Part shown: piece by piece, positions 15,201 to 62,197 of the stretch
How the letters are laid out: the number at the start of each line of letters is the position of its first letter
Position numbering within the stretch: position 1 is the first letter of the stretch
From: Paragonimus westermani
Taxonomy: Eukaryota; Platyhelminthes; Trematoda; Plagiorchiida; Troglotrematidae
Assembly: GCA_008508345.1 (NCBI GenBank)
Contig: QNGE01000855.1
Coordinates: forward strand, 1 to 64,000
DNA length: 64,000 nucleotides
Direction: 5' to 3'
Program-made: the position numbers and the translations under genes
The notes under the pieces: generated by a model
The model's database searches: none
The model's input: the letters and a program-made list of their open reading frames with translations, nothing else
Told to the model about the DNA's origin: nothing

Positions 15201-17384
15201 CAATACTAACGCCGGGACAACTACGAAAACTTCTTGACGTCTTTTTCTGCTTGAGAAGGTACGTTGCAAGGACTTTCTTCTGTATGTTTACTATGGATGG
15301 CTCAAAATTACTGAAAACGGGGGAAACGGCCTTGGTGCAACCACACTTCATCGCTGAATAACCGCCAGAACGGCACACCCGTTCCATCGAAGGTTCGCAG
15401 AGTGAAACAATGAAGGCACAGCGAAAACTCATTCGCTGACACAACTAACTTCGCCCATACCCAGCTGTATGTAACAGCACGTCCCGGAATTGCACATCGC
15501 GCCGCAAGATCCGGAGTCCAGACGAAAGGCTTACTCGACGGGCTAGTCGTCTAACCGAGTCGGGTGAGGGAATGGGCAAAACACACCGCTGAGACTAAAA
15601 CCAAATTAGCTGGCCGTGACAGTAAAGAAACAGTGGTAACCACTGACATGTTGCAATGATCATGATGATGCCTCACACTTTTTTGTAGAAGAAGATATTT
15701 CTGTTGGGTTTACTAAAAAACAACGAATAATACTAACTCAAAAGGCTCCTCACAACTTACAGAAGAGTATTTACACCTTCGGCCGCGATGGTAGGAAGTG
15801 AAAGTTAGTCTTCTGCACTCAAGACTACTAAAAAAGGAGGATCGGAGTTTAAATCCTCGTTGTGAAAATTACATGCATTGTTGACGGATCCTGTACACAG
15901 TACAACTCCAGCATACTACTTTCTTTCAAAAGTGACTTGCTGAAGGACCTAGCTGAATAAGAAAAATGTGATCAGAGGTTAATGTTGTTCAGTGTATTTT
16001 AACCGTACTTTCAATTATCTGACCGTAATAAGTCGTCATCCAACAGACTAAACAGGAGTCCCGGGTAATTTGTTTTTAATCCATAGTTACTCCGCGTTGG
16101 TCTGATTGATAAATTTTGACCCACTGAATAAACTGAGCCGCATATGTTACATCAAATTACAGGATGGAGGACCGACCTGAACAAATTTCACCTAAAGTGA
16201 TTGTACTGACGTGGCGTTACCGTTAGATGAATGATATCCATAGAGAACATTTTTAGCATTCATCACCCTCTGAACGATATTCCATATCGAGATTTAAAAA
16301 GTCGGGAAGATCTGTTGAACAGAAGTGTGGAGACGTCAAAGCGAATAGTTGTACGGTGAAGCGAACAGTCACAACAGCTGTCCAATCAGTGAAGTATATT
16401 TTTCACTTCGTCCACGTAGGGTTTAGAAATCTTCCAAAAATCAGTTTTTCAGGAGTTAACCTTTTCAGAAGTCAGCAGCAACCAACTGCCCAATGGTGAT
16501 GTATGGCTTCAAAAGAAACACGCAATCTCCCACAATTTGGGATCATCGACTGTATAACAATGAGATAGAACGTGGCTTGAATTTTCCGTGTTATGTTATC
16601 GCAGCTTCGGTTTTTGCCATTTTAACATCAATTTTGTCGTAGTTAGCCTGGCGGAAAACGATGACAGAAAACAAACCTTGTTCGTTTTTCGCCACGATCA
16701 TGATCTCCTATTCAAATTCCCTATCTTTTCTGCGCTCTCTCACTCCAAGTTGTTGCTCGCCATTCACAGCGCAAAAACATCTGTTCCGTTTCGCTGCTTT
16801 TTTGTACATAATATTACAAGCAGATCTCACAAAATGTTACTCATACCTTTTCTAAGTACATGGGAGCGAAACAGAACCAGCTTGCTTGCAAATGTCACCG
16901 CTAACGCAGCTGTTGTAGAACATCTTTTTTCGTCTGGACAGCCGAATATGGCTGGCTGGCAGAAGTTTCGTAAGCAATTCCGTCAGCTGAGTGTTGTTGC
17001 TAGCATGTGATCAACAAATGACGTTCACTAAGGTGGACCTGTCGGCACATTATGTTCACCGAATACTTATTCACTTAACTAAAGTGAACACACCCATTTT
17101 TGTTAAAGTTGTTATTGCTGCTACAGTTGCTGCCGTTAAAACTGACGACGATGATGCTCGTCATTGTCATCTTCACTATATCCGTACAATTCAGTGTCAT
17201 ATAGTTGCTAAAATAATAAAGGTTAAATGACCTCATAATTTTCGACTTTCTGATTGGATTTATTTTGATCCTGATTGGTTCGTTACCGAAATCCCATTCA
17301 CTTGTTGGCTGTGTTTCCGCGAAGGATGCAAGTCTTCCCATCATCTACGTTTTCTGGGGTAACTTAAGGACATGATATGTCAGT
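12266..17384. other. No recognisable gene
   Basis: Several open frames of 100-140 codons occur here, for example at 12290-12640 (+), 13287-13601 (+), 13634-13939 (-) and 16588-17010 (+). None shows a family motif or convincing splice context, and opposing strands are often open together, which suggests chance. Confidence 0.4.
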
Positions 17385-17632
17385 TTGTTGGTTGTATCTA
17401 TTCCTATCGCTTCGGTAATCATCAAGTACGTGAAGTCTTGATAAATACCAAATATCAATCGAGTTGCTACTTCCCAGCCCACCAGGCCAGTACCTGTGGC
17501 CAATCGAACACCTTAGTACGTATGATTTGGGTGTCCTTTACTGAATACCGAATGCGTTTGGCAACGGTGACGAACGAACCCGTTGTGGTAATCAACAGAC
17601 TTAAGCGAACAGGCGTTTCGATTCGAACAGAC
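17385..17632 (+). pseudogene. Possible Penelope-like GIY-YIG remnant
   Basis: One open frame contains CIYSYRFGNHQV near its start. This resembles the family block Cys-Ile-Tyr...Cys-Gly-x2-Tyr-Val-Gly with Cys to Phe and Tyr to Gln changes. Further on it reads SFTEYRMR and VVVINRLKRT, which resemble the C-terminal block (AEA-x-AINRLKP) of the better copy at 56.8 kb. The catalytic residues are lost. Spacing between blocks fits the family, but identity is low and this could be chance. Confidence 0.45.
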
Positions 17633-18319
17633 TAGAATCAAAACAGCAACGACGGAAACATCAAGCGTAATTTCTTTTGGTGCGTCAACTAGAGAAGTTT
17701 TTAAGTTACAAATATGCTCCACCCTTGTGGAATATGAATGCAAAAACTACTCTATGTATTCTTGTCTATCAGTGTGCAATCAGGAGGGAGTAGTGTAACT
17801 GTATAAAATTCAGGCGTACTATGTGTGTACTACATAAACCAGTGCAATTGATTCTAAACAGACAGAACACTGGCTTGAAATAAGACAACACTATACAAAA
17901 ATTGGGTCACAAGTCCGAGAAACAGGATGCTTGGCTTGGAAGTTGCGTGAAAAAAAACTGAAGACTGCGCGACATGATTTAATGACGACACAAACACCTG
18001 TAGAGCAGCTGGGTGAAGTGAATTATGCATTTAATACACCCTCACAGGTGCTTCACTTTAATGAGACCTTTAAAATTACAGCGTCCCTTTATACATACAA
18101 TATTTTGCAACTTATGATTTACAATTTTCAGTGCTACCACGATACAACAACGTTCTTACGAAAAACAATCACGTTGGTCATTTCAACACAGTAGTCAACA
18201 GCACACATTCATTCTTTGTCTGTCACTGGATCGATCAGGTCTGGGCAAGGTAATCTGAAATTTCCAGCCGCGAATTTGTTTGATGATTAATTTCACTCCG
18301 TTTTGTAAAATGATAGAAG
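17385..18319 (+). repeat. 935 bp tandem duplication, unit 1
   Basis: This is the first of two nearly identical units. The second starts right after the single N at 18320. I count only about four base differences by eye, for example the CCCAGCCC versus CCCAACCC stretch near 17475/18411. The identity, single N and exact adjacency point to overlapping contigs or two haplotypes joined by a scaffolder rather than a biological tandem repeat. Confidence 0.95.
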
Positions 18320-18320: not shown

Positions 18321-19255
18321 TTGTTGGTTGTATCTATTCCTATCGCTTCGGTAATCATCAAGTACGTGAAGTCTTGATAAATACCAAATATCAATCGAGT
18401 TGCTACTTCCCAACCCACCAGGCCAGTACCTGTGGCCAATCGAACACCTTAGTACGTATGATTTGGGTGTCCTTTACTGAATACCGAATGCGTTTGGCAA
18501 CGGTGACGAACGAACCCGTTGTGGTAATCAACAGACTTAAGCGAACAGGCGTTTCGATTCGAACAGACTAGAATCAAAACAGCAACGACGGAAACATCAA
18601 GCGTAATTTCTTTTGGTGCGTCAACTAGAGAAGTTTTTAAGTTACAAATATGCTCCACCCTTGTGGAATATGAATGCAAAAACTACTCTATGTATTCTTG
18701 TCTATCAGTGTGCAATCAGGAGGGAGTAGTGTGACTGTATAAAATTCAGGCGTACTATGTGTGTACTACATAAACCAGTGCAATTGATTCTAAACAGACA
18801 GAACACTGGCTTGAAATAAGACAACACTATACAAAAATTGGGTCACAAGTCCGAGAAACAGGATGCTTGGCTTGGAAGTTGCGTGAAAAAAAACTGAAGA
18901 CTGCGCGACATGATTTAATGACGACACAAACACCTGTAGAGCAGCTGGGTGAAGTGAATTATGCATTTAATACACCCTCACAGGTGCTTCACTTTAATGA
19001 GACCTTTAAAATTACAGCGTCCCTTTATACACACAATTTTTTGCAACTTATGATTTACAATTTTCAGTGCTACCACGATACAACAACGTTCTTACGAAAA
19101 ACAATCACGTTGGTCATTTCAACACAGTAGTCAACAGCACACATTCATTCTTTGTCTGTCACTGGATCGATCAGGTCTGGGCAAGGTAATCTGAAATTTC
19201 CAGCCGCGAATTTGTTTGATGATTAATTTCACTCCGTTTTGTAAAATGATAGAAG
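18321..19255 (+). repeat. 935 bp tandem duplication, unit 2
   Basis: This is the second copy of the unit at 17385-18319, ending at the shared GATAGAAG string. It carries the same possible Penelope-like endonuclease remnant (18321-18568). Differences include ATACATACAA versus ATACACACAA near the 3' end. Confidence 0.95.
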
Positions 19256-21316
19256 TTAAGCCAAGCACACACGATTGGATAAAACGCTTCGAATTAGACC
19301 TAGCCTATAAACTTAATTGAGCTTATTAAAACATCGCCGGAATTGAGTAAAGTTGACGGGTGAACCGGAACTGACTATGAATCACTGGGAACATAAGCTA
19401 TCAATCGTGATGAGTTGGGTATTTCCATTGGTCAGGTTGGTGACTTAATGATCATGTGAATCATCCAGTGGATGGGCTATCCATAATGGCAACGTGTTTA
19501 GTTAAAACACGTGCCCCAACCACATTATATTTGCTGCTCCGAATACTTTGCTCAAATCACTTCACATACAGCCCTAACCGTCGACTATCTGGGTCAGCTC
19601 CTGGAGAAAACCATCTCCGGTGTTAAACTGAAACAGTAGATTGTAGTGGCGTTTGTTTGTATGCTTAGAGATCTGTCGCACTACTCTGACTATGAGGCTA
19701 TCATGCGTGCTTTGCGCTAACTCACTAGATAATGTGTGGCTGGACTGTTTGGCAAGAGTACAATGCATTTTTAGTACACTGCTTTCTCTGGCTGATGGCA
19801 CAGAACACAGCTGCGACCGGAGACACACTCAGATTTGCCAGAAGGAGATGTTTGGAATATCCTCAGACCATTTATCACAATGTCCAATTTAAAAGCGTTT
19901 ATTTTTTCCGTGTGGGTTGTTGTTCCTACTTTGAGGAAATTCTCACTTATACCTCCTGTCATGCACTTTCAACGAATATTTCCAAACTGGCAATCAGATG
20001 CATCTATGTGTTTGTGTCGAAAGTATCAGTACATAATACAGGCTAAACTGTAGCTGAAATCGTAGTGTGCATCTTTGAAAGTTTTCGCTAAAATGTTTCG
20101 GCGGACATCGACAAACGCCTCTTGACAAAATGTGTCCCATCAAGACCAAAGAAAATTTCCTTGATTGACTACTGTAAGGAAAAATGAACGTGACTGAAAT
20201 TGTCTTGTTTCATTTAATTGGAAGTGTCATTATCGTTCAAGATGAGTTGTTGAGAGGAATATTATTTAATCCCTGAATAACTCATGGATTTTCGTTTCTA
20301 CCATTTGACCTTATTCCAGTTTCACACATGTATAGCAAACAAAACGAACAACGTGCTTATGGTGCAGTAGGTTTGGATGTAAGGAACTGCAATAAACCCT
20401 GGTCAGTATTCTCAATAGCCACCTTCCCCTCGAACACCTTTGTGTTTTCACTGCGATATCTTCAAAGGCAATACTGTGCCATATCTTTTGTCCTACTGTG
20501 GCCCATGAGAACTACAAAACATCTGCAATGCAAGGTTTTTCATCACCTTCAGAACATGCTAATATCAGGGCATTTCAGCGCCAGGAACGAACCTCTAAAA
20601 ACTGCTTTAGTCATTGTTTCGTGGCAATAACAGAAAACTATCGTTTTTGGGAAATCGCTACGTCCTCGAAAGAGATCGTGTTCCATTTTCTTTCCTCTTA
20701 ACTACCATGCTAACAAAAATGAGTTTTCGATTAATCGACGGCGTAGACTTGGAGAGATACTTCAGTCTTGCTTTTGATTGTGTTTGTGATTGTTTTGTCA
20801 TTTTGAATCGACTCAATTGTTACTTTGGTGTGATGTTTCGGATTGAAGGAAATGTTGAACAAACTGATCCAGATGTTCGTCTGTGATCACCACAACATAA
20901 CACCAACAGTTTCCTTTCTTTCGATATACTGATTAAGTGAATCCATCAAACGTTCAGTGTACCAGAGTCCAAGATAGACATGAATTTTAAGAGTTCTGCC
21001 AATCTACAACGCTTCAACATTATGTACCTCGGAAAGACCATACATGAAGCGAGCAGCGTTGCAAAAACCTCTCGTATCAATAATTTATCAACAAATCTAA
21101 TCCGAAAATGGCGTAACATTAATGGCACAAAAAAATTAGCTGTGAAAATGATAAAGGATGCGGCCATTGTTTAAGACCCTTAGCACCGCTAGCCTGGAAT
21201 TTGCTTACAATGCAGCAAGGTATTCTTGCTCTGCCATCGGGAAAAAAACGAACTATCATACTATTGCTAAGCGAGCGTCGCTAAACATTTGCATATATTT
21301 CATGGTTGCCCAGTAT
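19256..21316. other. No recognisable gene
   Basis: Short overlapping open frames occur on both strands (19574-20053, 20328-21174), with no motif, splice context or repeat that I can identify. Confidence 0.4.
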
Positions 21317-21357
21317 GATTTCAGTAGCACAGTGGTCAACATGGTTGCCTCATAAAA
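21317..21357 (+). repeat. SINE head fragment
   Basis: About 40 bases match the A-box part of the SINE head: GCACAGTGGTCAACATGG followed by TTGCCTCAT. The B box and hammerhead are absent, so this is a small relic. Confidence 0.55.
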
Positions 21358-21816
21358 TTGTAACTAGTGTACAACTCCCTCTGCTGACCAGCTTTCACAA
21401 GAACGTAACTCGTGTATAGAGTTTGTTTTCTCAGGTCAGTGATCGAAAAGTCATTGAGAATACGAGAGCTGCAATCCAATATACGTAATACTTAAATCGC
21501 GATTCTTATACCCCTTGTTAGTTATTGTATCTATCTTTATGCAGTGATAGGAAGGAAACAGCTCTTGAAGTCGGTGCTAGGGAGTGGAACACAAACTAGC
21601 CAAATGATGCAACAGCTCAACAGTTGGTGTGTAACTGTCCGCGAAAACTAAACACCTTATCCCCCATCTGAGGTAGTTCTGCGGTGATGATCGGTTTCGT
21701 CCTATCTATAGGAGTAAATAACCCAACATTACCACATACCGGTTACCAAGTCGTTGCGCAGATCGGGGTCGTCTGATTCTTACAAAGAATGGAAACCGAA
21801 TTCACATGCGACTTAC

Positions 21817-22342
21817 CGGATATAAGCAATGTAACTTGACAACTCCGCTGAACCAAAGTGTCGGCCAACAGTTGTAATTGACAGTTGGCTATAAGAAGAA
21901 AAAACGAGACAAACACCAGAAATCCGCACGCCAACACAAGCATAATCATAGCAACTCGCCAAACTACATGAGGAATCCGTTTGAACTGGTAATGTCCACA
22001 GTTTGGGCGTAGAAGGACCCTTTTTGATGGATCGACTGTGGTCATGTGTGTGCCAGACGTATCCTGATCGGCATACACGGGGTACACACATCGTCGATAG
22101 AGTCCCAAAGCACTCGGCAAGGAGTTAAACTGTAAACCAAGTGCCATAGGCACTTGTTTGCTAAGCCTGGTTTGAATAGTACCTTTAAGCCAATAAGGCA
22201 GTATACAACCACTTGTACAAAGTATCGCAGATAAACAAGTCATTGTAGACCACAACAACCAGAACCAATGCTGCATGGATCTGTCAGAACACACAGTAAT
22301 TTTATTAGATAGGCCTCTCAGCTGTGCGGTGGATAACACCAA
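21817..22342 (-). CDS. LHFPL2-like tetraspan protein, internal or first exon
   Basis: This open exon encodes the N-terminal half of a protein of the LHFPL tetraspan family, closest by motif to member 2. These are four-pass membrane proteins of the plasma or intracellular membranes; the role of member 2 is poorly known. Counting codons from 22342, there is a hydrophobic segment at 27-49 followed by PYWL, then LGLYRRC at 79-85 (LHFPL2 has LGIYARC). CGHY follows at 115-118, then IPHVVW and a second hydrophobic segment at 129-152. A consensus donor GTAAGT follows the exon (21811-21816), giving a phase 1 intron. The 5' edge is uncertain: either an upstream start, or an acceptor after TTCTGACAG with the exon beginning at 22280, just before a Met that matches the RSM of LHFPL2. 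The exon for the last two membrane segments should lie at lower coordinates; I could not find it. The frame is intact. Confidence 0.6.
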
Positions 22343-25300
22343 TGAGCCAGTGCTTTCGAGCTGTTTACAATTTCCTACTAAATCAGTACAGTAGATTCAC
22401 ATAACCAACACGGGCTGGTTATTCAAATCATTGATCGTTCCCCTAACACCTACGCATTTTGTGTGTAACACCGGTAGACCAATCATATTACGATCTGTGT
22501 AGATAAGGCATTGCTGGCAACATGGTAGCAAGCACCGGACGGTTGGTGCCATCTGAGTGGCAGAGATTGGGAGGGGGTTGCGTGCTACGAATCGAGTTTG
22601 GTGTTAATTAAAAACGATGCATCTCCGATACTGACTCGGACTAGATTGGTGTGCAGAGTGACTGGCACCGACAGCGATTTAAATGGCCATGATGTAAAAT
22701 TGTAATTATCACTCTTTTGGCTTGTTAAGGTCAATGCGAAGTAGATTCAAAGTTCCAGTTAATTGCTGTTGCCAGTTATCAGTTCAAAACTGAAATAGAG
22801 TTTAGTAGATTTCCCTTATGAAACAGAAGCGTAGAATCAAATATTTTATGCCAAATCCAGAAACTGGTGTTTTCTGCACCACTAAGTATAGTATTTTAGT
22901 ATATTTATAGGATTTCGGCTGATGGTTAGGTGAGCTCTAAATCCTAGCGGTGGAGTGGTTTTGAAACAAACGTGAAACTTCAGAATTAAGAACAGAGAAT
23001 CTGAATTCGACCGTGCCTGTAACAACACTATGGTTGATGAATTGACAGTTAGCACACAGAACAACGCGTGCGTTAGTGTTGTAAACATGATATCGTCATA
23101 GTATTTACTGTCATATTACGACAAACGCGGAGCATCCGTGACCCCAATTAAGATAGAGTTATGTAGTTGAAAAAAGTATATCTGTATTCAATGCTCGAAC
23201 TACCGTGACATTTGAACTTCAAGTTGATGAGAAACAACCCAACTAGTTTTCACAGAGGCAATTCAAGTCAATTCACCACTCGAAGAAGCTGGCAAATATT
23301 GACCTATCAACTGACGTATTAACGCGGATTTGGTCGGTATTTTCTAGCTTTATCAACGAAGAAAAATCAGTAACCATGGAAACCTGTAAAAGAAGCTTGC
23401 TTGGCCAGCAATTGTCACTGTATGCTTTGCAGTTCGAATGTCATCGTTGTTACCAAGATTACAAGTCTTTAAACTCGGTTAACAAATATCGAATACAGTT
23501 ATCAGAATCATATTAAAATGTTCATAAAAATAATACCTGTTCCTCGTTTTCACTTATCCTATTTGATCGTATGACAAATGCATAAACCTGATCGTAAAAA
23601 GCGCAATTCTTCTCATAATAAATGCGTTTCTAGGCTGGGGATGAATCTTAGAACAGGATGTAATTGTTTGTTTCAGGGAGAGCTTACTGTGCGTGCAGAT
23701 CATGGCTGATAACTGAGTCAGTGAAAATTGGAATGTTGAGTTCCGCACTCGAGTAATCTTACCAGCAGATTAATCATAATTTGTGAATTCTCTTCGCATC
23801 TGAATTGACAGATTAGCTTGAGTACGATCTCGTGAACGCTTGAGCGGGAGGTTTGCAGTCCCTGCCTTGTGATTGCATGTGGTGGGTTGAAGGTCTACCG
23901 GTCACAGCCTCACACACGGGCAAGTATGAGAACAGATTCTCGAGCTTATTTCACCTTATCCATGACCAGCAAAATGAGTACATATGAGAAACGCGCACAT
24001 CCTATGAAATCGCTGATTGTTAACAGAGAAAACGACCCATTTTAACGTATAACAGAAATTTTACTAGACGAGGCATATCTCAAAACGATCACAAGGATAA
24101 AAAATAAAGCTTGTTTATTATAAATTATTCACGAGATTGTGAATAACTTGGTTTTTGCGAGGGGATCATGAACGCCATCTCTGGAGAATTACGAAACATC
24201 TACTATGTAACTGTTTTGAACGCGAAACACCGTACAGTCGACTCACAGTCAGACCTATGTTAAATCATAACTGGACTCTCATGTAATTTAGCTTGTCTTG
24301 CTCCAGACACAGCTCCTCCTCAAAAGGGTTGCCAAACATCGTCAAATATTGCTCAAAAGGAACGCAGGTTATGAGTGAATTGGAATCAGTGAGTTTAAAC
24401 ACACGCCCCAATGTCTCAATTGAGCCTGCTGCCTACCTTGCATCTGTCCTTAGACGTGTTACCTGTTTCGCTCTGCAAGCTTAAAACACACCAAATCCAC
24501 GTGAAACAGTAGATATTTAGTCACATCTAGACATCTTCCCGCAAAGATCAATATAAAATTTAGAATGAGACATAAACATGGACTAAATTGAAGAAAGAAC
24601 CTCAGAAACACAACATTTTGGTGCCACTAACAACATAGATCACTCGGAGGACAACAGCCAAGATATGGATATCATGGAGGGGACTTGCTATCACAGGCAC
24701 AACTGTTGAATTATATCTACCGACGCCGAAATGTTTTCGACACTCCGGATGAATGAAAACCATGAGAAAACGACCGTCTGTTACTTGGTTCAATATCGAC
24801 TCAGTCGGATACTGCAACGCACCGAACATTAAGCTTCGACCAGCTGATAATTAGCAATGAATGTCCAATACTTGGGTTTATCGGGAGCTGTTCTTCCAGG
24901 ACCTCTAAATATCCTTCGCGCGAAACCCAATCCGCTCACAGTTTCCACCGTAACACTGGACATTGAATCGTTTCGCCTGAATGCCACATATTTATAAACA
25001 GCAATCTGAACAAGTCTGAAATGCTTACTCTGGAAAATTTTAGAGCAACATTCACGAAAATTTAAATTAGTTTCTTAGTTCGTTTGTGCAAATGACCTTT
25101 TGTGGCTACACCGACCCAAACCGAGGCTGTAGCACTCACATTTCAGTTCACTGCAATATGTTCACTGCAAATTCTGCAATTGAATTTCAGCATAGATCAA
25201 CGTATAATTCCAGCAACGAAGGTGCTACTTTGTCAGCTCTGAAAGCTTTAAGAAAAATGTAGATACTTACTATATGGTGAGTATTCTACTACTTAGGGAA

Positions 25301-36705: not shown

Positions 36706-36960
36706 TGGTGGTTGAACGTTCAGATTTGATAATTCGGTCGTGCCTAATGTGAGGTCAATGGCGCAGTGGTTAACACGGTTGCCTCATGATTGGAACGTCC
36801 GGAGTTCAAATCCCGGCCGTGACAAGGATATGCACTACTGACGAGCTCTAATGAGAGCGAAACTCGAGTCTAGTGCTTCTTTTCGAAAGAGGCCGGCTGG
36901 AAAGTCCCCCTGAATGCGAACGCTGCGATCAAATGTGAGTGATGGTCAACCTGAAAATCC
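36706..36960 (+). repeat. tRNA-derived SINE with intact hammerhead (best copy)
   Basis: The head is tRNA-like with an A box (TGGCGCAGTGG, 36760-36770) and a B box (GAGTTCAAATCCC, about 36802-36814), the internal RNA polymerase III promoter. A hammerhead ribozyme follows at 36832-36876, then a conserved tail containing GAAAGAGGCCGGCTGG and GTGAGTGATGG. Only the last part of the upstream conserved block (GTTGAACGTTCAG on) is present, so the copy is 5'-truncated relative to the 410 bp unit. It ends exactly where the minus-strand Penelope-like relic begins (36961). This is the least decayed copy in the window. Confidence 0.85.
36832..36876 (+). ncRNA. Type I hammerhead ribozyme
   Basis: All core boxes are present: CTGACGA (36838-36844), GAAA (36859-36862) and the cleavage triplet GTC (36868-36870). 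Stem I is perfect, GCACTA (36832-36837) with TAGTGC (36871-36876). Stem II is perfect, GCTCT and AGAGC closed by an AATG loop. Stem III is the palindrome ACTCGAGT with no loop, so a monomer folds poorly and a dimer is expected to be the active form. Predicted cleavage is after C36870. The arrangement, open at stem I and next to a tRNA-like head, is that of the schistosome SM-alpha SINE. Confidence 0.85.
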
Positions 36961-42094: not shown

Positions 42095-44079
42095 TTGTCT
42101 ATAAGTCGAACACATTTGCATGATTCGCCATTCTTGGCACGCGTGCGTTCCCGTAACCTTGTCTAAGTCACTCTACCATCTGGATTACTTTTTCACTTTG
42201 GGATTTTACAGTCTGCAGGACAGTCGTTACAAACTGCGGTAACCTACCCTTCTCCTTGTGCATTCGTTCTCTCTGCTACAACACTGTCTTTTGGTCATAT
42301 CTGATTTCTATCTTTGCCGATGCAACAATATTGGATAGAGCCCATTGAAAGCAACCAGTAAGAAAGCTTGCTAGTGGATTTCGTGAAAGTTGCATCAGAT
42401 TACAAGATTGTGGTTTCAAACCTCTTCTCATGTTAATTAGGACTAGTATAACAGGCTTACTTGGTGAATTAGATTTGTATAACATTCCTAAATGAACTCT
42501 ACACTTCTACTCTGCATACTGGTTTAGGTATGTGTGGCTGATAGTGTACCCTACATTTTCTCCCGAGAGGATTTGCTGTTAAGATGATTATCCCATATTC
42601 TGTATCGCAAAATAAGATTGGGTATCCAGCTACCAACATCATTATCTGGATTTTGTGCCACGGTCAGAAAGTGCTGAGCGAAGTCTGTTGTGGCGATCTA
42701 CTTTGAACTTCTTTGGATAGATCGATAGACGACGTGGTTGCTTATTCACTTGTTTAGATGAGTAAGTCAATGAAAACTTACCTTTTCTGGACAGACTGAT
42801 TGGCTTTCTGTAGAGTTGACGCGTTCTGTTCGTCAATGCATGCATCTAGTGACAGGCCTGGTGATAAGCAAAACGCACACCGTCGAAGTTTGGTATCGGC
42901 GTCACAACTTTAGCCGGGCTCGGCTGTGTAGGGAATCAATCGGAACGCTGCGATCATTATTCGTCCCCATGAAGAGTGCTACATCGTGACCTTTCTATGA
43001 GCACACACTTCAAAACTTGTACTCATTAAAACCTACCACATCCAGAGTAAATCGTGCTGTCAGTCTATTTTGTAGTCAACACGAATCGTTAGTCCTAATT
43101 ATGCACCGAATTCCGTCTACAACCTCATCTGTTAAACAGAAGATAAACGAACTGACAGTAACCATTTGATATGACCCAGCCTATGGGCTGCGGATTGTTA
43201 CCAACTTCCATCTGATGACTAACGACAAGGCACAATCGACGTTTGGTGCACAAATCATGACTAACCTACTGTGTTCGTCCCCCATTCCGTTCGTACGTTC
43301 TCTTTGACCTGTTCTCCGATGTGTATATTCAGGTTGTTTTCTAGTAAGCCACTGCTAACGAGACGAGCTCAAAACTTTGTCATCCGGCAGCACACACATC
43401 CTTACTGTTCAAATGACTTATGTATTAAGTTGGTCAAACTGGTATTCTCTGAAGTTTGTCACATTTGAATACAGATCACCAGAAATTCTTCGATGGCATT
43501 TCCTAATTCACCATGATAATTTGATCCTTGAAGTGGTTCTAGCAGTCTTGAAATGCTAGACTAATCTATTGCGGTCCAGATGAGTACCTCGTCGATCATC
43601 GTCCGCAGTGAATTCAGCGAGAATACTGTTTTCAGTTAACTCACGGAGTGAACGGATGATATCGACTTCTAGTTGAATACGGGATGGATGGAATAATGTG
43701 TAGGGTGTAGCGGCTCGTGAATAGCGTGTGAACTGCAACCGCCCGCCAGAATTGAGATGCTAATCTGGGTGGATTTGCGTCTTCCTGTGCGTCGATAACG
43801 ATGACTCATTGTGGGTGACAAGTCGAACACGAAACAACCCGGAGGATTCGAACTTGTGGGTTATAGCACGTCTTCCATGTGCCGCCACAAACAGCACCCA
43901 ATTTGTGTCTGTTTTATTGACTGGCAAATGTTGAAACCAACTGTGCGTGTCATACTACCCCTTGCATGTCAGTTAGAATCACGGGAATTGTGTCGGGTTC
44001 AAAAGCCTAATGTAGCTGGCGGCGTGAAACGTACGGGGTTAGACGGAACTGATGGTCACTCGATGTGAAAAACCAAAAT

Positions 44080-44495
44080 CCCTACTACTCATCAGTAATC
44101 AAAATATCGCTCAACAAGATAATGACCTAATTGAATTCAGCCTGAAGAGAAGTTGAGTAGTCATCGACTGGAGTTGGTGGGACAGTTACTGTGTCTGCTC
44201 TCGAGACGATCGGGCAACCTAGACATTATTCACAAGCGGATATGTTTGAGCGTTCACATGATGATTCGGTCGTGCGTAATGTGGGGTGAATGGCACAGTG
44301 GTCGACATGGTCGTCCAATGAAGGCATAGGCGGTGTTGTAGTCCCGGTCGCGGCAAGGATATGCACCACTGAGTAGCTCCGATGAGAACGAAACTCTAAG
44401 CTAGTGCTATTTTTCGAAAGGGGCCGACTGGAAAGTCTGTGGGAATGCGGCAGTTGCGATCACTTGTGGGTGATGTTCGATCTATGTGACCATTT
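44080..44495 (+). repeat. SINE, full-length but decayed
   Basis: This copy spans the whole roughly 410 bp unit. It starts at CCCTACTACTCATCAGTAATC, has the 5' block with CTCGAGACGATCGGGCAACCT and a tRNA-like head with A box (ATGGCACAGTGG). The hammerhead region is at 44363-44407, and the tail contains GGGCCGACTGGAAAGTC. In the hammerhead the second G of CTGANGA is T, stem II has mismatches and GTC is AGC, so it is inactive. The bases just before the unit (CTGATGGTCACTC) resemble the unit's own tail, which hints at tandem copying. Confidence 0.75.
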
Positions 44496-46154: not shown

Positions 46155-48110
46155 TTAATATATAGCAATTAGCCACGAACGGTCGGTGGGTTTACTCCCA
46201 AAGTTAACAGCCTGACAGAATATGGTGTCCAAATCGACGGTCAGGTAGTCAAACAATCTTCCATCATTCACCCCGACGCACGTCAGACTATCCTGAGGGC
46301 AGAATTTCTTGACCGTTTTGAGGCCGTGATTGATTTGAAACATGACAGACTCGTAACGAAGTATGAGGTGGTTCCACTAGTGAGAAAGCCCAAACCTCGG
46401 CTCAGACAAATTTAATCGAATGCACCCAGAGCAATACCAACTCGTGACAATCGGTTGCTGAATAAAGTGATACGCAAGTTTCAAAGGTTGCTCATTACGG
46501 ATCAGGACCGGTAAGGCTATTGCGATTGGGTTGAACACGAAATCCCTATCGAGTTGAAGCGATTTAGGCCATTCGGCCCCAGAAGAAACCCATTGCATTT
46601 GCAGCCGGAAATTGAACGACAAGTGAAATACATGCTGAAGGAAGAAATCATCGAGGAGGGCGATATCCCATTCAATTCTCGCGTCTTGTTGGTGAGGTAG
46701 TCCAGTGGTAAATTCCGGTTTTCCGTCGACTTCGGGCGGGTCAACGAGATTACAAACAATAAAGTCGAAGTAGTCCCGGCGGTGGCGGAGATTTTTTGAA
46801 AAGCCACAGAACGCTAGGGCATCTACAGTGTTGGAATTATGGTCCGGATATTGGCTGGTCCAAATCAAGCGATCGGACCGAGATAAAACAGCGTTCACAG
46901 TAGAAGGAAAGCAATACCGCTTCAAACGGATACCATTCGGACTCTCAGGCGCCCACTTCACGTTTAGACCACTGGTGCTGAAGATGCTGGACGGATTAAG
47001 TAATATTGTTGTCTATGGAGACGATATCGTCATTTACAGCACAACTGAAACAGAATATACAGTACACGTTTCAGCCGTGACGCAGAAGACTGAAAAAGCC
47101 CGCCTACGGGCCAACAGTTCAAAGTCTCAACTGGCAAAACTAACAGCAGTACATCTCGGTCACAAGGTCATTCAGGGGGGAGGTCCGGTCAATGCTCGAG
47201 AAACTGATGGCGATCGAGGCTATTCCATTGCAAACCTCGTAGAGGACGTTGCGACAGTTCCTCAGTCGCGTTCGGTTCTACAGCCGTTTCATCAAAAAAT
47301 TCCATGACCGCGCGAGCCCATTGTACGAAATTCTGAAGAAAGATTGCCAGCTTCACTGGTCAGAGAAAGTCAGTCAAGCGTTTGTCGAGATCCAAAGATT
47401 GATGAAGAAGGGACAGTTTACCCCGAAATTGCCAATGACTGGACACAGATTTGTTGTCGCAACGGATGCGAGTGATGTAGGAATCGGAGAGATACTGAAG
47501 CAGGAAAACGGTGTCGTGGAATATGCCAGTGGGTACTAAGGCCTGTTGAACGAAACTATTTGACGACAGAGAAGGAGTGTTTGGGGATCGTGTGGACCTT
47601 GGAAGAACAGATGCCGTACTTGCTCGGCCGATGTTTCCATGTGGAGACCGACCACAAACCACTGGAATGGATTAAATCGGCTAAGGACTCCCGTGGAAAG
47701 CTGGCTCATTGGGCGTTACGACTTCACAACTCACCATGAAGCCGGAAAAGAGAACTGTGTGCCCAATTTGCTTTCCCGAATCCAACACCTGGATGGGATT
47801 CATAAGGACGTGATCAGAGTTAACATTATCGAACTGGGGGGTGACCGCGGAAGGTTACAAGTAGCGCAGGGGATGGGTACAGCGATTCAGGCGGAGATTG
47901 ACCAGTTTTGTCAGGAGGACAACTGCCAGAGGACGAGGGGAATCCGTAATTGAAGCCTGTCAGAATGCAGTGGTCCGACTTGCGGTTGAATAGTGCCGGA
48001 ATTTTAATGCGCCAGCTTCGAGAGGGAATAGACGTGCCGGTCATACCGGTGGAGTTGAGGGCGACAATTATGAAGTAATGTCTTGAGCTGGCTTCAGCGT
48101 TTGGTAGGTT
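46155..48110 (+). pseudogene. Ty3/gypsy LTR-retrotransposon pol relic
   Basis: Domains run in order. The end of the aspartic protease region reads ILRAEFLDRFEAVIDLKHDR (about 46280-46345). The RT N-terminal block has PIELKRFRPFGP and YMLKEEIIEEGDIPFNSRVL (46540-46690). The RT core has SGYWLVQIK, FKRIPFGLSGA and the catalytic box VVYGDDIVIYS (47008-47040). RNase H has VVATDASDVGIG, ETDHKPLEW and HHEAGKENCVPNLLSR (47454-47780). The integrase zinc-finger start reads VIPVELRATIMK-stop-CLELAS (48038-48095). Frames shift near a G6 run at about 47175 and again near 47540, and stops are frequent, so it is inactive. No LTRs or gag were found. It ends in a foldback at 48032-48189. Confidence 0.85.
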
Positions 48111-48189
48111 CGATGACAACCCGTATGAGCAAGCTGATGACATTCTTTCATAGTTGTCGCCCTCAACACCGCCGGTATGACCAGCACGT
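48032..48189. repeat. Inverted repeat (foldback) at the gypsy 3' break
   Basis: The arm at 48032-48073 (GTGCCGGTCATACCGGTGGA on) is the inverse of 48148-48189. Weaker pairing continues inward to a loop of about 35 bases. Read on the minus strand, the right arm encodes VIPAVLRATTMKECHQLAHT, the same integrase zinc-finger segment and closer to the gypsy consensus than the left arm. It therefore looks like two opposed copies of the same gypsy segment joined together. Confidence 0.85.
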
Positions 48190-48226
48190 TTATTACTTCA
48201 AACATCGAAAATAAACCGCGCAGATT

Positions 48227-48481: not shown

Positions 48482-48849
48482 CTCATTGTTGATAGGTGAA
48501 ATTGTTGCTACTCAGACGATCTGAAGGGTGAGCAGATTTGGTTCGTTATAAGATGCGAACTGATAGCCATGTCTAGATGACAGCTGGGAGCTATCTTGGC
48601 CTGACTTATCTTTGTAATCACTAACAGTTGCAGTCAGAAAACAGTTACAGAAGAGAAGTTATGCCAATTTGAAAGAACAGCAGTCAGAATGACTAGTTAA
48701 CCAGAATAACATTAGATGGCATCACATGCTTGAATTGATTATAGCTTTTTGGTTGTGACGATCTGGAGCGTTAGTGAACCACTGTTTCATCATGTTACTG
48801 GTGAGTAATAGGGGGTTTGTTGATATGAGCTGAAAAGTACAAGTATTGG

Positions 48850-48940
48850 ATCAACGACGCAGCGGTCAACATTGCTGTCTCGTGAAAGCGTGACCGGAGT
48901 TCTAGTCCCGACCGTCGCAAGCATATTTCATGGTGGCGAC
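48850..48940 (+). repeat. SINE head only
   Basis: The A box is ACGCAGCGGTCAACATTG and the B box is GAGTTCTAGTCCC, followed by CCGTCGCAAGCATAT, matching the SINE head. The sequence leaves the family before the hammerhead. Confidence 0.6.
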
Positions 48941-49633: not shown

Positions 49634-49916
49634 ATTAGAAGACAAAGGTGATTTTGGCGAACAGTCTGTTTTCGGTTATTCATCATCGGGCCAATTACAT
49701 AACATTTTATACCATCATGGTTGTCAAGCGAGAAAAAATCAAGAGCAATCGGTCACATAACCACATCAAACGGTTGTGAATTGGACGACAATTAGGTGAC
49801 AAAATTGACCTCCGGAGTTGTCAAGTGGGTAATGGGAGGCCATGGTGTCCGTAGGGTCTGAACAAATTTATTCACCGAAAACAGACTGTTCGCCAAAATC
49901 ACCTTTGTCTTCTAAT
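49634..49916. mobile_element. MITE-like element with 43 bp terminal inverted repeats
   Basis: The left end ATTAGAAGACAAAGGTGATT continues to TTTCGGT (49634-49676). Its exact inverse is at 49874-49916, with 39 of the bases forming a perfect inner arm (49638-49676 against 49874-49912). The interior of about 200 bases has no open frame. TA sits at both outer ends of the inner arms, compatible with a Tc1/mariner-type target duplication. The string GGAACCAGTAAT also occurs on both sides (49625 and about 49959), which may be chance or an older duplication. Confidence 0.8.
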
Positions 49917-52900: not shown

Positions 52901-53280
52901 GTTGTCCCCTCAATGGGTGATAGTTCGATAAACTGGTCACTGTTGTTTGTCTTTTTGGGGAAAACAGACAACGTGTACAACCTAAAGAGCTTGCGCTTCC
53001 ACCTCGTGCCATAACAACCATGAGCCCAATGCCTACTGAACAGTGGACGTTTTAGCCAATTCCGGTACACACCATCTGCTGTTAAAGTACAAACACCGTG
53101 GCTCACATGGTAAAACACTGATCCATTAAGCGGATTTATCAACTGCATGGTTTCGAACTTTATCCAGACCACGAGAGTGTGTTGTGTGGACAGGTGAAGC
53201 ACAATCAAGACGACAATACAACAAAATCGAGACTGTCAGACGCAACTCGGTCAGAACGTGTTGAAATCTGACAAACACAC
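49917..53280. other. No recognisable gene
   Basis: Only short frames are present (50514-50699, 52130-52381, 52820-53208), without motifs or splice context. Confidence 0.4.
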
Positions 53281-53289
53281 ATTCCCAAG

Positions 53290-53695
53290 CTGAACATCAC
53301 TCACATTTGATCGCAGCGTTCGCATTCAGAGGGACTTTGCAGCCAGCCTCTTTCGAAAAGAAGCACTAGACTCGAGTTTCGCTCTCATTAGACCTCATCA
53401 GTAGTGCATATCCTTGCCACGGCCGGGATTTGAACTCCGGCCATTCCAATCATGAGGCAACCGTGTTAACCACTGCGCCATCGACCTCACATCAGGCACG
53501 ATCGAATTAACAAATCTGAACGCTCAACCACTCTCGCTTGTGAGCAATGATCAGGTTGCCCGATCGTCTCGAGTTACTGTCTGTTAACTCCAATCGATAA
53601 CCCCGCGATTAGGACTTCCGAGACAGGTCGAGATCACTGAAATCATTAAATCTGCAAGGCGATATTTTAGATTACTGATGAGTAGTCGGGGATTT
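53290..53695 (-). repeat. SINE, full unit with near-intact hammerhead
   Basis: Read on the minus strand, the complete unit of about 410 bp starts with the 5' block (CCGACTACTCATCAGTAATC on, then CTCGAGACGATCGGGCAACC). The A box is GATGGCGCAGTGGTTAAC, the B box is GAGTTCAAATCCCGG, the hammerhead lies at 53363-53407, and the tail ends TGTGAGTGATGTTCAG. A second, partial unit tail lies directly upstream (53700-53765). Confidence 0.85.
53363..53407 (-). ncRNA. Hammerhead ribozyme, one stem II mismatch
   Basis: Minus strand: CTGATGA, GAAA and GTC are all intact, stem I is GCACTA/TAGTGC, and stem III is the same ACTCGAGT palindrome as in the copy at 36.8 kb. Stem II is GGTCT against AGAGC, giving one G-G mismatch. 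The active-site bases are therefore kept and partial activity is possible. Confidence 0.75.
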
Positions 53696-53699
53696 GGTT

Positions 53700-53765
53700 T
53701 ATTTTCAAGTTAACCATCACTCACATTTCATCGCAGTCTCTACATTCAGATAGACTTCACATTAC
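53700..53765 (-). repeat. Partial SINE tail joined to the next unit
   Basis: On the minus strand this is GTGAAGTCTATCTGAATG followed by ACTGCGATGAAATGTGAGTG, the SINE tail. It runs directly into the 5' block of the full unit at 53290-53695, a tail-to-head junction as seen in tandem repeats or dimers. Confidence 0.75.
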
Positions 53766-55154
53766 ATTCCTTGATCAACAACACATATGAACAGTACGTA
53801 GAAATTCTCAATAAAATTGAGAGCTCATTCCATTTTGGAACGACACGATGTGTTTATCATTAATGTCTGGAAAATTAACTGATAGGGACATATTGTATTA
53901 TACGGATTGAATTTTCCCCTAACATTTGGGAAATGTGTCGGATATTTAGATATCATTTCCATTTCCATTTTCCATACAGTTAATAGCGATATGTATGGAT
54001 ACTTTTTAAAAGACTGCTAAACTGAACTATTTGTTATAAGCACACTGCTCCCAGACTAACCGAAAAAGGACTGCAAATTGTATGAACGAACAAATAGTCA
54101 TGCAAGCCATGTTGGCTTTTTAAATTCCGAAGGCGCCTCTACATCTTCTCCTGGGTGTTATGCTAAGAAGCAGAAGTTGATTGCAAAAGTGTTCGACAGT
54201 TTTTAATGTTTTGTGTCTTATAACATGATGTTGTGTTTGAAAGTAGTCACACAATTGTTAGAGTCCGCAATCAATTTCATGATCAGTCCCTGTCAGTTCA
54301 CTCCGTATAATTCCTTCATCTGCGAGTAAATTTCACCTGCAGGAATTTCCCTTCACGTGGTTCGTTTCAGTAAACCCGAACTCACTAGCGGTACGGTTTT
54401 CGAAATTGATTCAACATTATAAAGTCGGCACCACCGGTGGATTGCCCGTGGCTGATATGACCTGTCGTCCTTTTCTAAGGTGAGTTTGAGTGGAAGTCTC
54501 CTGGAAGACGAACAACTTGAGCACGATTATCTAATCAGACTTCAAAAACATTTCCTCTCACGCTTTGATAAAATTCTTTCTAGATGTGGAGGGTTCTTAG
54601 AACTGTATTAATGCATATATAGTGTCAGCTCAGTCAGGTGTTGATTTGGTGAAGTGGTCTGCGCATACTTCAAGGACAAATCCAACTTAGAATTATTCGG
54701 GATTTTCCTGTCAGAAAATAAATGAGAGCACTTTTGCAATCAAAGTAGAGTGAACAGAATCTTTTCAGGCAATGGGAAATAGAATTTCATGATTCTGTGT
54801 GCGTATCTTTTTGAGTAAGTTATTCACGCTCCCCAAGAAAATTGGAGCCGCATTGTCTTTCAAAGCACCAAATTCATTTTGGGCTGGGGTGCTCGTACTT
54901 TTACGGTTGATTAAAATGGAGTGAAAATTTTCAGCTGTGTCAATCTATTGACATGTAGCATTCACTTCAGTAAAAAAAATCTAGTCGGTTATCTGTATTA
55001 ATAAGCAACATATGTAGAGAAAATAGGATGCCCGTGTGGTCGTTAGACGAAATGTATGACGGTTTATGCAGCTATATATTCTTTGTGGATTTTTAAACTC
55101 AGGACAAGAACGTTTCTAGATGGTTAGGAGTAGTTTTCTTCATCATATTGCCAT

Positions 55155-55589: not shown

Positions 55590-55700
55590 ACTGAACACCA
55601 ATCACGTCCGACTTCACCTGTTGCATTCCGGGGACTTTGTAGGAGACTCTTTCGGACACTCGAATTTCGCTCTGGCTAGATTTCGTCAGTGGTGCCGGTC
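55590..55700 (-). repeat. SINE tail with decayed hammerhead
   Basis: On the minus strand, CACTGACGA and AGAGCGAAATTCGAGTG are hammerhead remnants with the GTC site changed to GTG. The tail segment containing GAAAGAGTC follows. It matches the 53.3 kb copy over about 110 bases. Confidence 0.6.
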
Positions 55701-55924
55701 CTCAATTAAAGATCTTGTTCTAATTAGAGAAGACTCATTGCTTACAGGTAAACTACAATTTGCTCAGAAATTGCAATCCGTTCTTAGACTTGATAAGGCG
55801 CACTAATCGTGAGTTATCCGTTTGGAGTAGCGAGTTGAGCTATTGTGCCTTACCTCAAAGTGAATGGGCAGTCTGAATGTCACTCAAATGAATGTGGCTG
55901 AGTATCCATGAATGCAAATTCATT

Positions 55925-56050
55925 TGAGCTTAACGAGGGATAATTGGCAAGGTAGTCAACCCAGTTGCCTTAGTGGAACCTGAACCAGAGATGACATCCG
56001 GTAGTGTCGATTATACGCACTGCCGACGAGCTTCAACCGAAAAACAACGA
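55925..56050 (+). repeat. Degenerate SINE copy
   Basis: It has an A-box-like TTGGCAAGGTAGTCAACC, then GTTGCCTTAGTGG and a hammerhead remnant GCACTGCCGACGAGC. It lies in the opposite orientation to the copy at 55590-55700. Confidence 0.5.
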
Positions 56051-57000: not shown

Positions 57001-58820
57001 CCACCCTGCCCCCCTAACTGCTCGATATAAAAACCGGTTCCATGTTATTGTAAATTTTGTATTGACGAGTCAATACGAAATGCCGGTTTTCGTGCTCTAA
57101 CGGTTTTGTTCAAATCATGTGATTTCCTAGTCAAGGCAATCAATACGTATCTTGATTCACACTCTTGCTGGCGCTTTTGTCTACACTCGCCTGTGGCTGT
57201 AGCATGAGCTTAAACTACTGGTTACAATGCACGAATTACTTTATTAAATGTCTTCTGGACTTACGAAATCCAACGAACTGGTATGTTGAACCTTCCCAAA
57301 TTGCTCTCTGAAACAGTTCCGGACGGATCCCACCGTGATATCCACTGCAGAGAGTGAGTCTACTTGAAAGACCACGTTTACATGTGTCACAGAGACAAGT
57401 TATTCTTTCAGAGAAACACCGAAAATGAATCTTGACTTGCCAAAACTACGATCGATGGTGGCAGTCAAAGGAGTATCCACTATCTTGATCAGATACTGGC
57501 GGATTCGTACAAATATCTATGCCGCCAGATATAAACGCACGAGGAATCACTAGATGTCTCCATTACAAGGTTAGTTCGCTTTTTTGGAGTTGGGTCTCGT
57601 TTAACCATTACTGCTACTGCAGCCAGATTTTATACTGAAAATTTCTCATTTATTTCTCAGAATTTCTCACATGGTTGTTCTAATGAGACAGAGAACATTC
57701 AGAGATTTTCACCAATTAGTTTTTTCGGAGGATCTAACAAATGTAAAATTATCGTTTACTTTCGTGGATGTGACTATGACTCTCTGTCTGAATGAACTGT
57801 TGTGTTAGCTGCACGTGTTTTACTCCTCATCGACAGCATGACAATTACCGACCCAAAAATCAGCCACATTCTGGAACATCATCGCACACGTGTGTACTAT
57901 CCATACCGTCTCAGCTACTATCGGGTAACCGGATAGCACCTCGAATCAAGAAGGCGTATATATCGAAGCACAAAACAGCTCTAAATTCTTACGATTCAAC
58001 CGAGTTCTGCAAATTACTAGCTTCCATTCACGATCGTAGATCTGAGATGAACAGAAATAAATTGCGCCTAGTTCCATTCATGACAGTCAAAGCTCTATAC
58101 TTCCATTACGCCCATAGCTGTTAGGAAGATTAACACAAGGCTTGTTGTATCGGCCACGTTCCAGTACAGTTCAACCACCAGAACTGCCGCTGTACCATCC
58201 AAGCTCTTGCCCATTTCTGATGATTAACATGGAGGTTCCCCAGTATGGCCGACTGTCCCAATCTACCCAATCATATATCCAGCCGCCCCAGATAGTAATT
58301 AGGAAGTACTATTGTGTGTGAATGAATGCATGTAGCACAGATGAGTATATTGTCGACTCGTTTAGCCACACTTGTATATGAATGTGTAGTTACCCATCGA
58401 ATTGTTTGATCATCATGTGACTGCCTAGTCAAAACGATCATTCTGTGTTGAATCGTGCCCATGCCTTCACCTTGCCTCAGGAGGTGTGGGTAACTGCTGT
58501 TCGTATTAAGTTTGTATTGAACCACAATATCCCCGTGTACGATAGCGTGTTGCCGGAGAAAGCAGCTCGATTGGAAATTATATCTAGAAGCACAACTCAC
58601 GGTACCCGCAAACGGCCTTCATATCAATTATGTTTCAACATTAGTGTTTCAACCATTGATGTGCCTATAGTCACTTGTCCCGTTGGTCGGATTTTATTGA
58701 ATTTTAAGTGTAGTAAATCTCCATGACCCAATGTCATTGCCGGACGTAGTGCAACATATCCTCACGTCAAACAAAACCTGAGCGAAATGCAATTACATTA
58801 AATTCACTTAAATATTCCAA
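57001..58820. other. 3' flank of Penelope-like copy, then no recognisable gene
   Basis: The first 150-200 bases look like element 3' untranslated sequence. A stretch at about 58400-58450 resembles the sequence at 57115-57165 (shared CATGTGA and CCTAGTCAA strings), suggesting another decayed copy of the 3' end. The open frame at 57792-58124 has no motif. Confidence 0.4.
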
Positions 58821-58821
58821 A

Positions 58822-59130
58822 TCTCCTTTCGGAAGAAAAGCACTGGACTCCAGTTTCGCTCACGTCAGGGTTCGCCAGCCACGAATATCCTTAACATGGC
58901 CAGGATTTGAAATCAGGTCATGGTTTTATGTGGCAACCGTCATGACCACGGTGTCAATGGCCTCACCTTAGGCACAACCAGTAACCACATCCAAACACTG
59001 AATAGAAGACACAGTAACTGACATGTCAAGTCCAATCCGTGACCCCAGAACTAAGACTTCTCTCTACGCTAGAATCACGTGCCATTAAAATTGCTAACAG
59101 GTATTTTGGTTAATGATAAGTCTATGGGAA
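58822..59130 (-). repeat. Degenerate SINE copy
   Basis: On the minus strand, the 5' block (GTCAGTTACTGTGTCTTC), head (GAGGCCATTGACACCGTGG) and hammerhead region (GAGCGAAACTGGAGTCCAGT) can all be aligned. CTGA is CTGG and stem II is lost, so the ribozyme is dead although GAAA and GTC persist. The tail beyond CTTTTCTTCCGAA is missing. Confidence 0.65.
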
Positions 59131-60830: not shown

Positions 60831-60834
60831 AACC

Positions 60835-60990
60835 ATGTCCTTCGTAAAAGAGTCACTAAACCCGAATTTTCCGGTTGCTACACCACAACAATAATGAGTA
60901 ACAATGTCATGATCCGCAGTTGAAATCCGGCCTTTGTTCTCACGAGGCAAAAGTGTTGGGCCCTACGCCATTGATCGCACACTGGGTACT
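60835..60990 (-). repeat. Degenerate SINE copy
   Basis: On the minus strand, GATCAATGGCGTAGGGC (A box) and GGCCGGATTTCAAC (B-box side) mark the head. The tail piece GTTTAGTGACTCTTTTAC lies at the lower coordinates. The hammerhead cannot be read. Confidence 0.5.
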
Positions 60991-61279
60991 GCCGAACTGC
61001 CATATCTGAGCTCTTAGTCACGCCTAAGTTTGAGTAGTTAAGCTTGCTTGATTTCATCGGTAACAAGCACAATATCTGTCTTCCTATCTCTAGCCGACGA
61101 ACCCACGAGTTGGATCTCTTAGTCAGGTTGACAATACTGAATTTTCTAAACACACACCGTAATGAATTGATTACTGGTAAACGATTGAGAAGTATTTTGG
61201 TAAAGACTGAATAAGACTCTCACTTGATCACAGTTTTCGAATTCGAAACGACTTTTTAACAACACTTTCGGAGAACAGC

Positions 61280-62059: not shown

Positions 62060-62197
62060 TGCGTGAGTGTTCGGCGTATAATTTTGAATTTGGCGTTTGT
62101 TGAAGTTGGATCGATGCCTGCTCTTACAGAGCAGAGTGGGTTGACCTACTGGTCTGAATTCTGGTTGGTCGGTTTCTGTCGTGTTTGGCCTGACCCA

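Follow-up and report, generated by a model that had tools for sequence, protein, structure and literature searches.

At positions 36832-36876 of this stretch of Paragonimus westermani DNA lies a motif that reads as a hammerhead ribozyme within a SINE-like repeat, which raises two questions: is the ribozyme real, and how is the element that carries it copied into new sites? The window referred to below is the whole 64,000-nucleotide stretch that was analyzed.

The hammerhead motif and its repeat family

By direct reading, stem I comprises 6 bp, with GCACTA (36832-36837) pairing with TAGTGC (36871-36876). Between its strands lie the core strand CTGACGA (36838-36844), a 5-bp stem II (GCTCT/AGAGC with loop AATG, 36845-36858), GAAA (36859-36862) and a cleavage-site C at 36870. 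All features of the hammerhead class, i.e., CTGANGA, GAAA, a cleavage-site H and stems I-III with an open stem I, are present, and beyond an internal loop the strands could also pair as an outer stem I (AAGG/CUUU). The features of this copy are as follows:

36708-36958, plus strand: SINE-like copy, 5'-truncated at unit position 159 and reaching the tail (nhmmer round 3, unit 159-399, E 1.3e-78)
36759-36769, plus strand: A-box-like sequence TGGCGCAGTGG (A-plus-B-box pattern match at 36759)
36804-36812, plus strand: B-box-like sequence GTTCAAATC (pattern AGTTCAAATCC with one mismatch)
36832-36876, plus strand: predicted type I hammerhead ribozyme (RF00163 above gathering; 14 of 14 pairs, 10 of 10 core bases), predicted to cut after 36870
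36862-36869, plus strand: palindrome ACTCGAGT as stem III, loopless or formed between two strands (these 8 bases pair in the two-strand co-fold)
36877-36958, plus strand: tail 3' of the hammerhead, with a T run at 36880-36883 (unit 328-400 in the family alignment)

An Rfam type I covariance search had been set beforehand as a check on the claim, made in the earlier note, that the hammerhead is complete. In this search, the full RF00163 (Hammerhead_1) model, positions 1-45, aligned to exactly 36832-36876 with 34.7 bits against a gathering threshold of 34 (E 6.2e-5 for a search of 64 kb with 4227 families). Together with the legible core bases, 6-bp stem I, 5-bp stem II and palindrome, this bears the claim out. 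The match was the sole one at gathering level in the window; under permissive settings (E up to 5) two hammerhead matches were returned, i.e., the same motif as RF02275 and a second at 53346-53419 on the minus strand.

Iterated nhmmer searches (E<=1e-3) identified 14 fragments of one ~420-bp unit in the 64-kb window, 13 in round 1 and 14 in rounds 2 and 3. The unit consists of a body, the A and B boxes (unit 210 and 255), the hammerhead (283-327, with the predicted cut after 321) and a tail whose modelled 3' end lies at ~400. Two copies are young, the 36.7k copy being 93% complementary to 53281-53531, and the agreement of the other 12 fragments with the consensus is 68-73%, depending on the region. 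The remaining members of the family, with adjoining pieces, are:

53284-53764, minus strand: second young copy, a full unit (unit 1-401) with ~50 bp of direct tail before it, i.e., a partial tandem; hammerhead at 53363-53407
53279-53285, no strand: one side of the 7-bp direct repeat ACATTCC, the other being 53764-53770; possible target-site duplication
44035-44490, plus strand: old full unit with a short direct tail before it (unit 1-398, E 4.4e-99)
58802-59127, minus strand: old full-start unit (unit 1-366, E 4.1e-71)
59118-59164, plus strand: inverted tail, head to head with the 59k unit (unit 353-399; E 0.12 in the window, 0.0016 at the locus)
60783-61186, minus strand: old full unit (unit 3-398, locus E 5.8e-91)
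61208-61303, minus strand: direct hammerhead half and tail before the 61k unit (unit 303-399, locus E 3.7e-18)
61309-61419, plus strand: inverted hammerhead and tail, head to head with 61208-61303 (unit 287-399, locus E 3.4e-18)
55592-55702, minus strand: old hammerhead and tail (unit 276-399, locus E 1.5e-18)
55780-56037, plus strand: old piece with body, box and part of the hammerhead, head to head with 55592-55702 (unit 54-303, locus E 1.2e-50)
21240-21493, plus strand: old fragment (unit 119-398)
15832-15992, plus strand: old fragment (unit 240-400)
12191-12304, plus strand: old fragment (unit 286-398)
4199-4344, plus strand: old fragment ending at the hammerhead start (unit 116-286)
48842-48939, plus strand: old fragment of the box region (unit 197-295)

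Partial tandems were found at 53k, with a period of 420 bp, and at 61k; long tandem arrays of the unit were absent from the window. The longest open stretch listed for the regions covering the two young copies was 46 aa, and the unit contained no reverse transcriptase or GIY-YIG coding region.

Several other features share the window. A lipoma-HMGIC-fusion-partner-like exon (Pfam L_HMGIC_fpl) lies at 21743-22396 on the minus strand, with 138 of 154 residues identical to Paragonimus heterotremus. The segments 17384-17700 and 18321-18640 are ~99% identical (300 nt reported, longer by eye), the second beginning after a single N at 18320, and the pair has the appearance of a spurious assembly duplication. 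Inverted repeats occur at 48022-48199 (72-nt arms, 83% complementary, 34 nt apart) and at 49634-49916 (perfect 43-nt arms with 197 nt between them).

When 12 copies were scored for the ribozyme, one was perfect (36.8k), one had a single broken pair (53k) and ten were decayed or partial. The 53k hammerhead, at 53363-53407 on the minus strand, retains 13 of 14 pairs and 10 of 10 core bases, the broken pair lying in stem II, and falls below gathering in both RF00163 and RF02275 (30.3 bits against 52 in the latter, at 53346-53419, minus strand). The earlier note's statement that the other copies share the layout is to this extent put too strongly. It had also named sub-threshold scores in other copies as evidence that would speak against it, and among the copies of this window such scores were indeed found. 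Given that the majority sequence of the old copies restores the motif, we read them as neutral decay of dead copies. This majority, taken from the 12 old fragments with the two young copies excluded, contains every core base and the full palindrome, one stem I pair being G-U. It draws on 8-10 of the 12 fragments at each hammerhead column, is thinly backed at the cleavage-site C (4/9), two palindrome columns (5/9) and the first core C (5/10), and is biased towards the consensus by alignment of the old rows to a profile that includes the young copies. Because young and old copies have the same ribozyme, the comparison suggests that it was long present in the source elements. The hammerhead columns themselves were kept no better than the rest of the unit: identity of the old fragments to the consensus was 0.701 in the hammerhead, 0.676 in the head, 0.733 in the tRNA-like part and 0.686 in the tail, and 30% of random 10-column sets scored as high as the core columns.

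Might the motif be a chance match, in a repeat that never had a ribozyme? The RF00163 score exceeds gathering by just 0.7 bits, as such a reading would have it, but the E-value of that match, the intact core of the 53k copy and the restoration of every core base in the old-copy majority make it highly improbable, in keeping with the earlier note's view that the match is too complete for chance. A B-box-plus-hammerhead pattern matched 16 times in a viral collection, and Rfam, run on 13 of the 16 (L001-L013; L014-L016 were left out), found no hammerhead in them, returning 46 matches, i.e., 44 tRNA, one tmRNA and one Y RNA-like. The hammerhead 5'-part pattern matched 3 viral and 17 prokaryote contigs, and a pattern scan for the palindromic form had no match in the viral collection.

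Upstream boxes and predicted folding

Putative Pol III-type A and B boxes lie upstream of the hammerhead (36759-36769 and 36804-36812), as in SM-alpha-type SINEs, and the end of the B box is 19 nt before the motif, so that the ribozyme lies shortly downstream of it, as originally described. The A-plus-B-box pattern occurred 4 times in the window, compared with 0.38 in a null consisting solely of base shuffles in 500-bp blocks (at most 3 in any shuffle). The young copies account for two of the four; the other two matches, at 29514 (plus strand) and 37688 (minus strand), lie outside the listed copies.

The label "tRNA-derived", also from the earlier note, could be upheld in part, i.e., by the good A and B boxes. 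ARAGORN at default settings called no tRNA in this stretch, and the Rfam tRNA model had no match to the 36.8k stretch at E<=10. At a lowered threshold ARAGORN returned poor tRNAs only, with His for the 36.8k copy and no assignment for the consensus. The sole weak Rfam match of the tRNA-like part lies on the antisense strand and is to a plastid 5'UTR family (18.4 bits against a gathering threshold of 65.7), which we take to resemble an antisense tRNA. On the basis of the boxes, a tRNA origin is likely, although short of proven. Just after the hammerhead are four T residues, at 36880-36883. This run could stop Pol III and so yield a short RNA with the boxes and the ribozyme but no tail, in which case full units would need read-through.

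The palindromic stem III bears on how the hammerhead might act. In two-strand co-folding, the 36.8k motif was predicted to form exactly the dimeric hammerhead (-34.1 kcal/mol, compared with 2 x -13.7 kcal/mol), and the 53k hammerhead co-folded likewise (-25.9 versus -17.4). As a 45-nt monomer, the hammerhead fold was calculated at -7.4 kcal/mol with stem III and -8.7 without it, compared with -13.7 kcal/mol for the best alternative; for 74 nt the corresponding values were -8.5 and -18.0 kcal/mol. The predicted stability of this 74-nt stretch was not unusual (z -0.98, with 31 of 200 shuffles as good). The dimer-based cleavage suggested previously is thus favored by the predicted dimeric structure, but not by its energy gain, which 191 of 300 shuffles matched. 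We consider it plausible that the hammerhead acts as a dimer, with which the modelled folding is consistent without being proof of it. A 420-nt circle was not clearly more folded than its shuffles (-119.8 versus -114.1 +/- 4.9, with 7 of 60 as low), and the predicted unit RNA of 420 nt was 66% paired, compared with 63% in shuffles.

A weak or minimal stem III is described for the hammerheads of newt, axolotl and Penelope elements, which cleave better as dimers (PMC7229834, PMC7761336, PMC6155905), and stem III is reported to be very short in those of schistosome W elements (PMC8490949). The loopless stem III had been put forward as an extension of the SM-alpha system. That proposal fails because the Rfam type I consensus is itself drawn with one: it reads GAAACGcgCGUC, with a loopless stem III of four pairs.

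Insertion anatomy and the mode of copying

In round 3 of the nhmmer search, 10 of 14 fragments ended at unit 398-401, a position that the model length itself helps to fix at unit 400, and the others ended at 286, 295, 303 and 366. The 5' ends of the same round were scattered, at unit 1, 1, 1, 4, 54, 116, 119, 159, 197, 240, 276, 286, 287 and 303. With a query running on into the 53k flank, most matches still stopped near the same 3' place and three ran ~40 bases further (query ~610). None of the 14 round 3 fragments started or ended within 5 nt of the predicted ribozyme cut.

A tail precedes the unit in all four copies that start at unit 4 or earlier, directly in 53k, 61k and 44k and inverted in 59k. 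At 53k this upstream direct tail spans ~50 bp (53760-53712, locus E 1.5e-4). At 61k a direct hammerhead half and tail precede the unit, and an inverted hammerhead and tail precede these (locus E ~3e-18 each). A tail-to-start model placed the inverted tail of 59k at 59112-59199 with E 0.013 in the window, in addition to the unit-model values listed above. The direct tail at 44k is short and weak: the unit model did not find it at the locus, a 53k-only query crosses the junction (query 132-572 at 44040-44481), and the tail-to-start model, itself partly trained on 44k, also matches there. Because tail is followed by unit start, the template would have run from one unit into the next. We infer that circular or uncut head-to-tail RNA served as the copied template, with a Penelope-like or a LINE enzyme.

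Pieces of the unit also occur head to head, as at 55k, where the hammerhead-plus-tail piece and the body piece are 77 bp apart. Three such inverted pairs were observed, whereas randomly placed intervals gave 0.11 on average, with at least three pairs in 4 of 20000 trials; the test is made optimistic by the choice of its 14 intervals, one of them weak (59112-59199), after the pattern had been seen. Tail-to-tail pairs were absent among these 14 intervals. A weak inverted tail-to-start match at 48795-48834 (minus strand, E 0.27) adjoins the 48.8k fragment and, if real, would raise the number of head-to-head pairs to four. The 53k insertion is bounded by the repeat ACATTCC/ACATTCC, possibly a 7-bp target-site duplication; 16 of 200 random flank pairs scored as high anywhere. 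At 61k a flank repeat lies 15-30 bp outside the ends, with 20 of 200 random flank pairs as high, and at the other 7 of the 9 loci nothing above chance was found that resembled a target-site duplication.

What the sequence shows directly is the hammerhead motif, its family of repeats, 3' ends that cluster and the junctions between tail and unit; transcription, cleavage, circularization and the enzyme belong to the explanation proposed for them. Our preferred reading, to which we assign a probability of about 0.62, is a non-autonomous retroelement of a digenean fluke with a ~420-bp unit, which would work like SM-alpha and the animal retrozymes and be copied from circular or uncut head-to-tail RNA. 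Tandem units would be transcribed and the hammerhead would cut the RNA to unit lengths, probably while dimer-paired via the 8-nt palindrome, after which a host ligase may close the unit-length RNA into circles. A borrowed reverse transcriptase would start at the tail and insert copies of the circular or uncut head-to-tail RNA elsewhere, which would account for 3' ends that hardly vary, for 5' ends at many positions and for junctions of tail to head. Such junctions agree with the retrozyme model, in which multimeric cDNA is made from circular RNA (PMC7761336). Against the mechanism we count that only one of the 12 scored copies is perfect and one nearly so, that the hammerhead columns are no better kept, that the monomer hammerhead is not the fold of lowest energy, that neither the dimer gain nor the folding of the circle stands out from shuffles, and that the 3' end is fixed in part by the model length, with three matches running beyond it. 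A lizard Penelope element was reported to insert in vitro without ribozyme cleavage, which counts against a need for cleavage (PMC11167929).

The same ends and boxes could belong to an ordinary tRNA-type SINE with Pol III transcription and LINE-driven movement, in which the hammerhead is a passenger. The A and B boxes at 36759 and 36804 and the clustered 3' and scattered 5' ends are what such a SINE would show; a tail before the unit would be explained by source loci in tandem, and head-to-head pieces by LINE twin priming, and the 55k pair (unit 54-303 inverted beside 276-399) does fit twin priming on a single unit. However, the boxes lie ~210 bp into the unit and only the 48.8k fragment (unit 197) starts near the Pol III start, the T4 run could stop Pol III before the tail is reached, and the old-copy majority keeps the ribozyme. 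We therefore regard this explanation as unlikely.

Two open reading frames of the window are of note. One, at 46777-47307 (plus strand), encodes a reverse transcriptase (RVT_1, E 1.5e-15) that by our own reading is LTR-type. The other, at 62201-62851 (minus strand), shares 63% identity, across 73% of its length, with a GIY-YIG-domain protein of Clonorchis and is probably Penelope-like. Downstream of it is a hammerhead-like CTGATGA...GAAACGTT that contains the palindrome ACGT, the two together spanning 62030-62851 on the minus strand. This motif, possibly a minimal hammerhead of the Penelope type, is among 17 pattern matches, compared with 6 expected, and Rfam does not call it.

Could a Penelope-like enzyme be the mover, with the hammerhead and tail serving as a miniature pseudo-LTR, both direct and inverted? 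The element would then be a Penelope-dependent SINE with Pol III-type boxes, copied from a circular or head-to-tail RNA template, and we put forward both the mover and this fuller description tentatively, as somewhat improbable on present evidence. Before full units, the tail is direct at 53k and 44k, inverted at 59k and inverted-then-direct at 61k, and three head-to-head pairs with no tail-to-tail pair point the same way. LINE twin priming can also make head-to-head pieces, and would do so on circular RNA too, which weakens the latter argument. In Penelope inserts, a direct pseudo-LTR may have an inverted one in front of it, head-to-head inverted pieces are described as typical, and the two orientations are mixed in the same way (PMC3846280). 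The GIY-YIG-like ORF and the hammerhead-like motif at 62030-62851 add to this, as does the published proposal that Penelope elements mobilize retrozymes, in which they are named merely as likely candidates for moving those of animals (PMC7761336). On the other side, the sequence shared with the Penelope-like fragment amounts to a weak match (E 0.13 at 62930-62865, nhmmer round 4), the 62201-62851 ORF has no Pfam match at 1e-3, and the loci are few and from one window. This alternative also overlaps with the preferred reading, which leaves the enzyme unspecified. Were it true, the insertions described here would back the published suggestion that animal retrozymes are mobilized by Penelope elements.

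Comparison with known ribozyme-bearing elements

A literature search, with subscription papers mostly outside its reach, returned no publication on a hammerhead ribozyme in Paragonimus, which does not establish novelty. For platyhelminths in general, the presence of retrozyme-like repeats has been stated (PMC7229834). The SM-alpha and Sj-alpha elements of Schistosoma are described as SINE-like and as carrying a hammerhead (PMC2770079, PMC8490949, PMC4918200, PMC5993326); the S. mansoni SINE is reported to derive from tRNA-Gln, with an SM-alpha unit of 335 bp (PMC2770079, PMC8490949). In S. haematobium, 7 of 16 hammerhead-like small-RNA clusters are reported to overlap SINE/tRNA repeats (PMC5993326). 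The arrangement found here, in which a repeated SINE-like element combines Pol III-type boxes with a complete hammerhead, matches that of schistosome SM-alpha, as the earlier note had proposed. Both SM-alpha and Sj-alpha resemble it in being SINE-like, with tRNA-type sequence, a type I hammerhead and repeated copies, and the Rfam type I consensus likewise has a loopless stem III. Unlike SM-alpha (335 bp, tRNA-Gln), and compared by description only, the present unit is ~420 bp long and has no clear tRNA identity.

Retrozymes are recognized by a type I hammerhead in ~150-450 bp repeats that occur as dimers or more, and the ~420-bp unit has these properties. As in metazoan non-LTR retrozymes, the hammerhead sits in short repeats with partial tandems and a putative circular or multimeric template. 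Those retrozymes seem to be promoterless (PMC7229834, PMC7761336), whereas Pol III-type boxes are found here, and the predicted circle is not clearly more folded than its shuffles. Penelope-like elements share a hammerhead in a repeated part and terminal pieces that are direct as well as head-to-head inverted, an arrangement that LINE twin priming can mimic. They differ from the present unit, which lacks a coding region, spans a few hundred bp and has no clear sequence in common with the Penelope-like fragment of the window. The satellite hammerheads of newt and axolotl (PMC7229834, PMC6155905), again compared by description, have a similarly weak stem III and work better as dimers, but their units measure 330-350 bp.

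The element is thus of a known kind; what is new is the anatomy of its insertions. Ribozyme-bearing SINEs, known from blood flukes, now extend to a lung fluke, whose old copies preserve a record of the copying of the RNA in their tail-to-head junctions and their head-to-head pieces. With these features, genome sequence alone can test whether circles made by the ribozyme are the template and whether Penelope enzymes or LINEs carry out the insertion.
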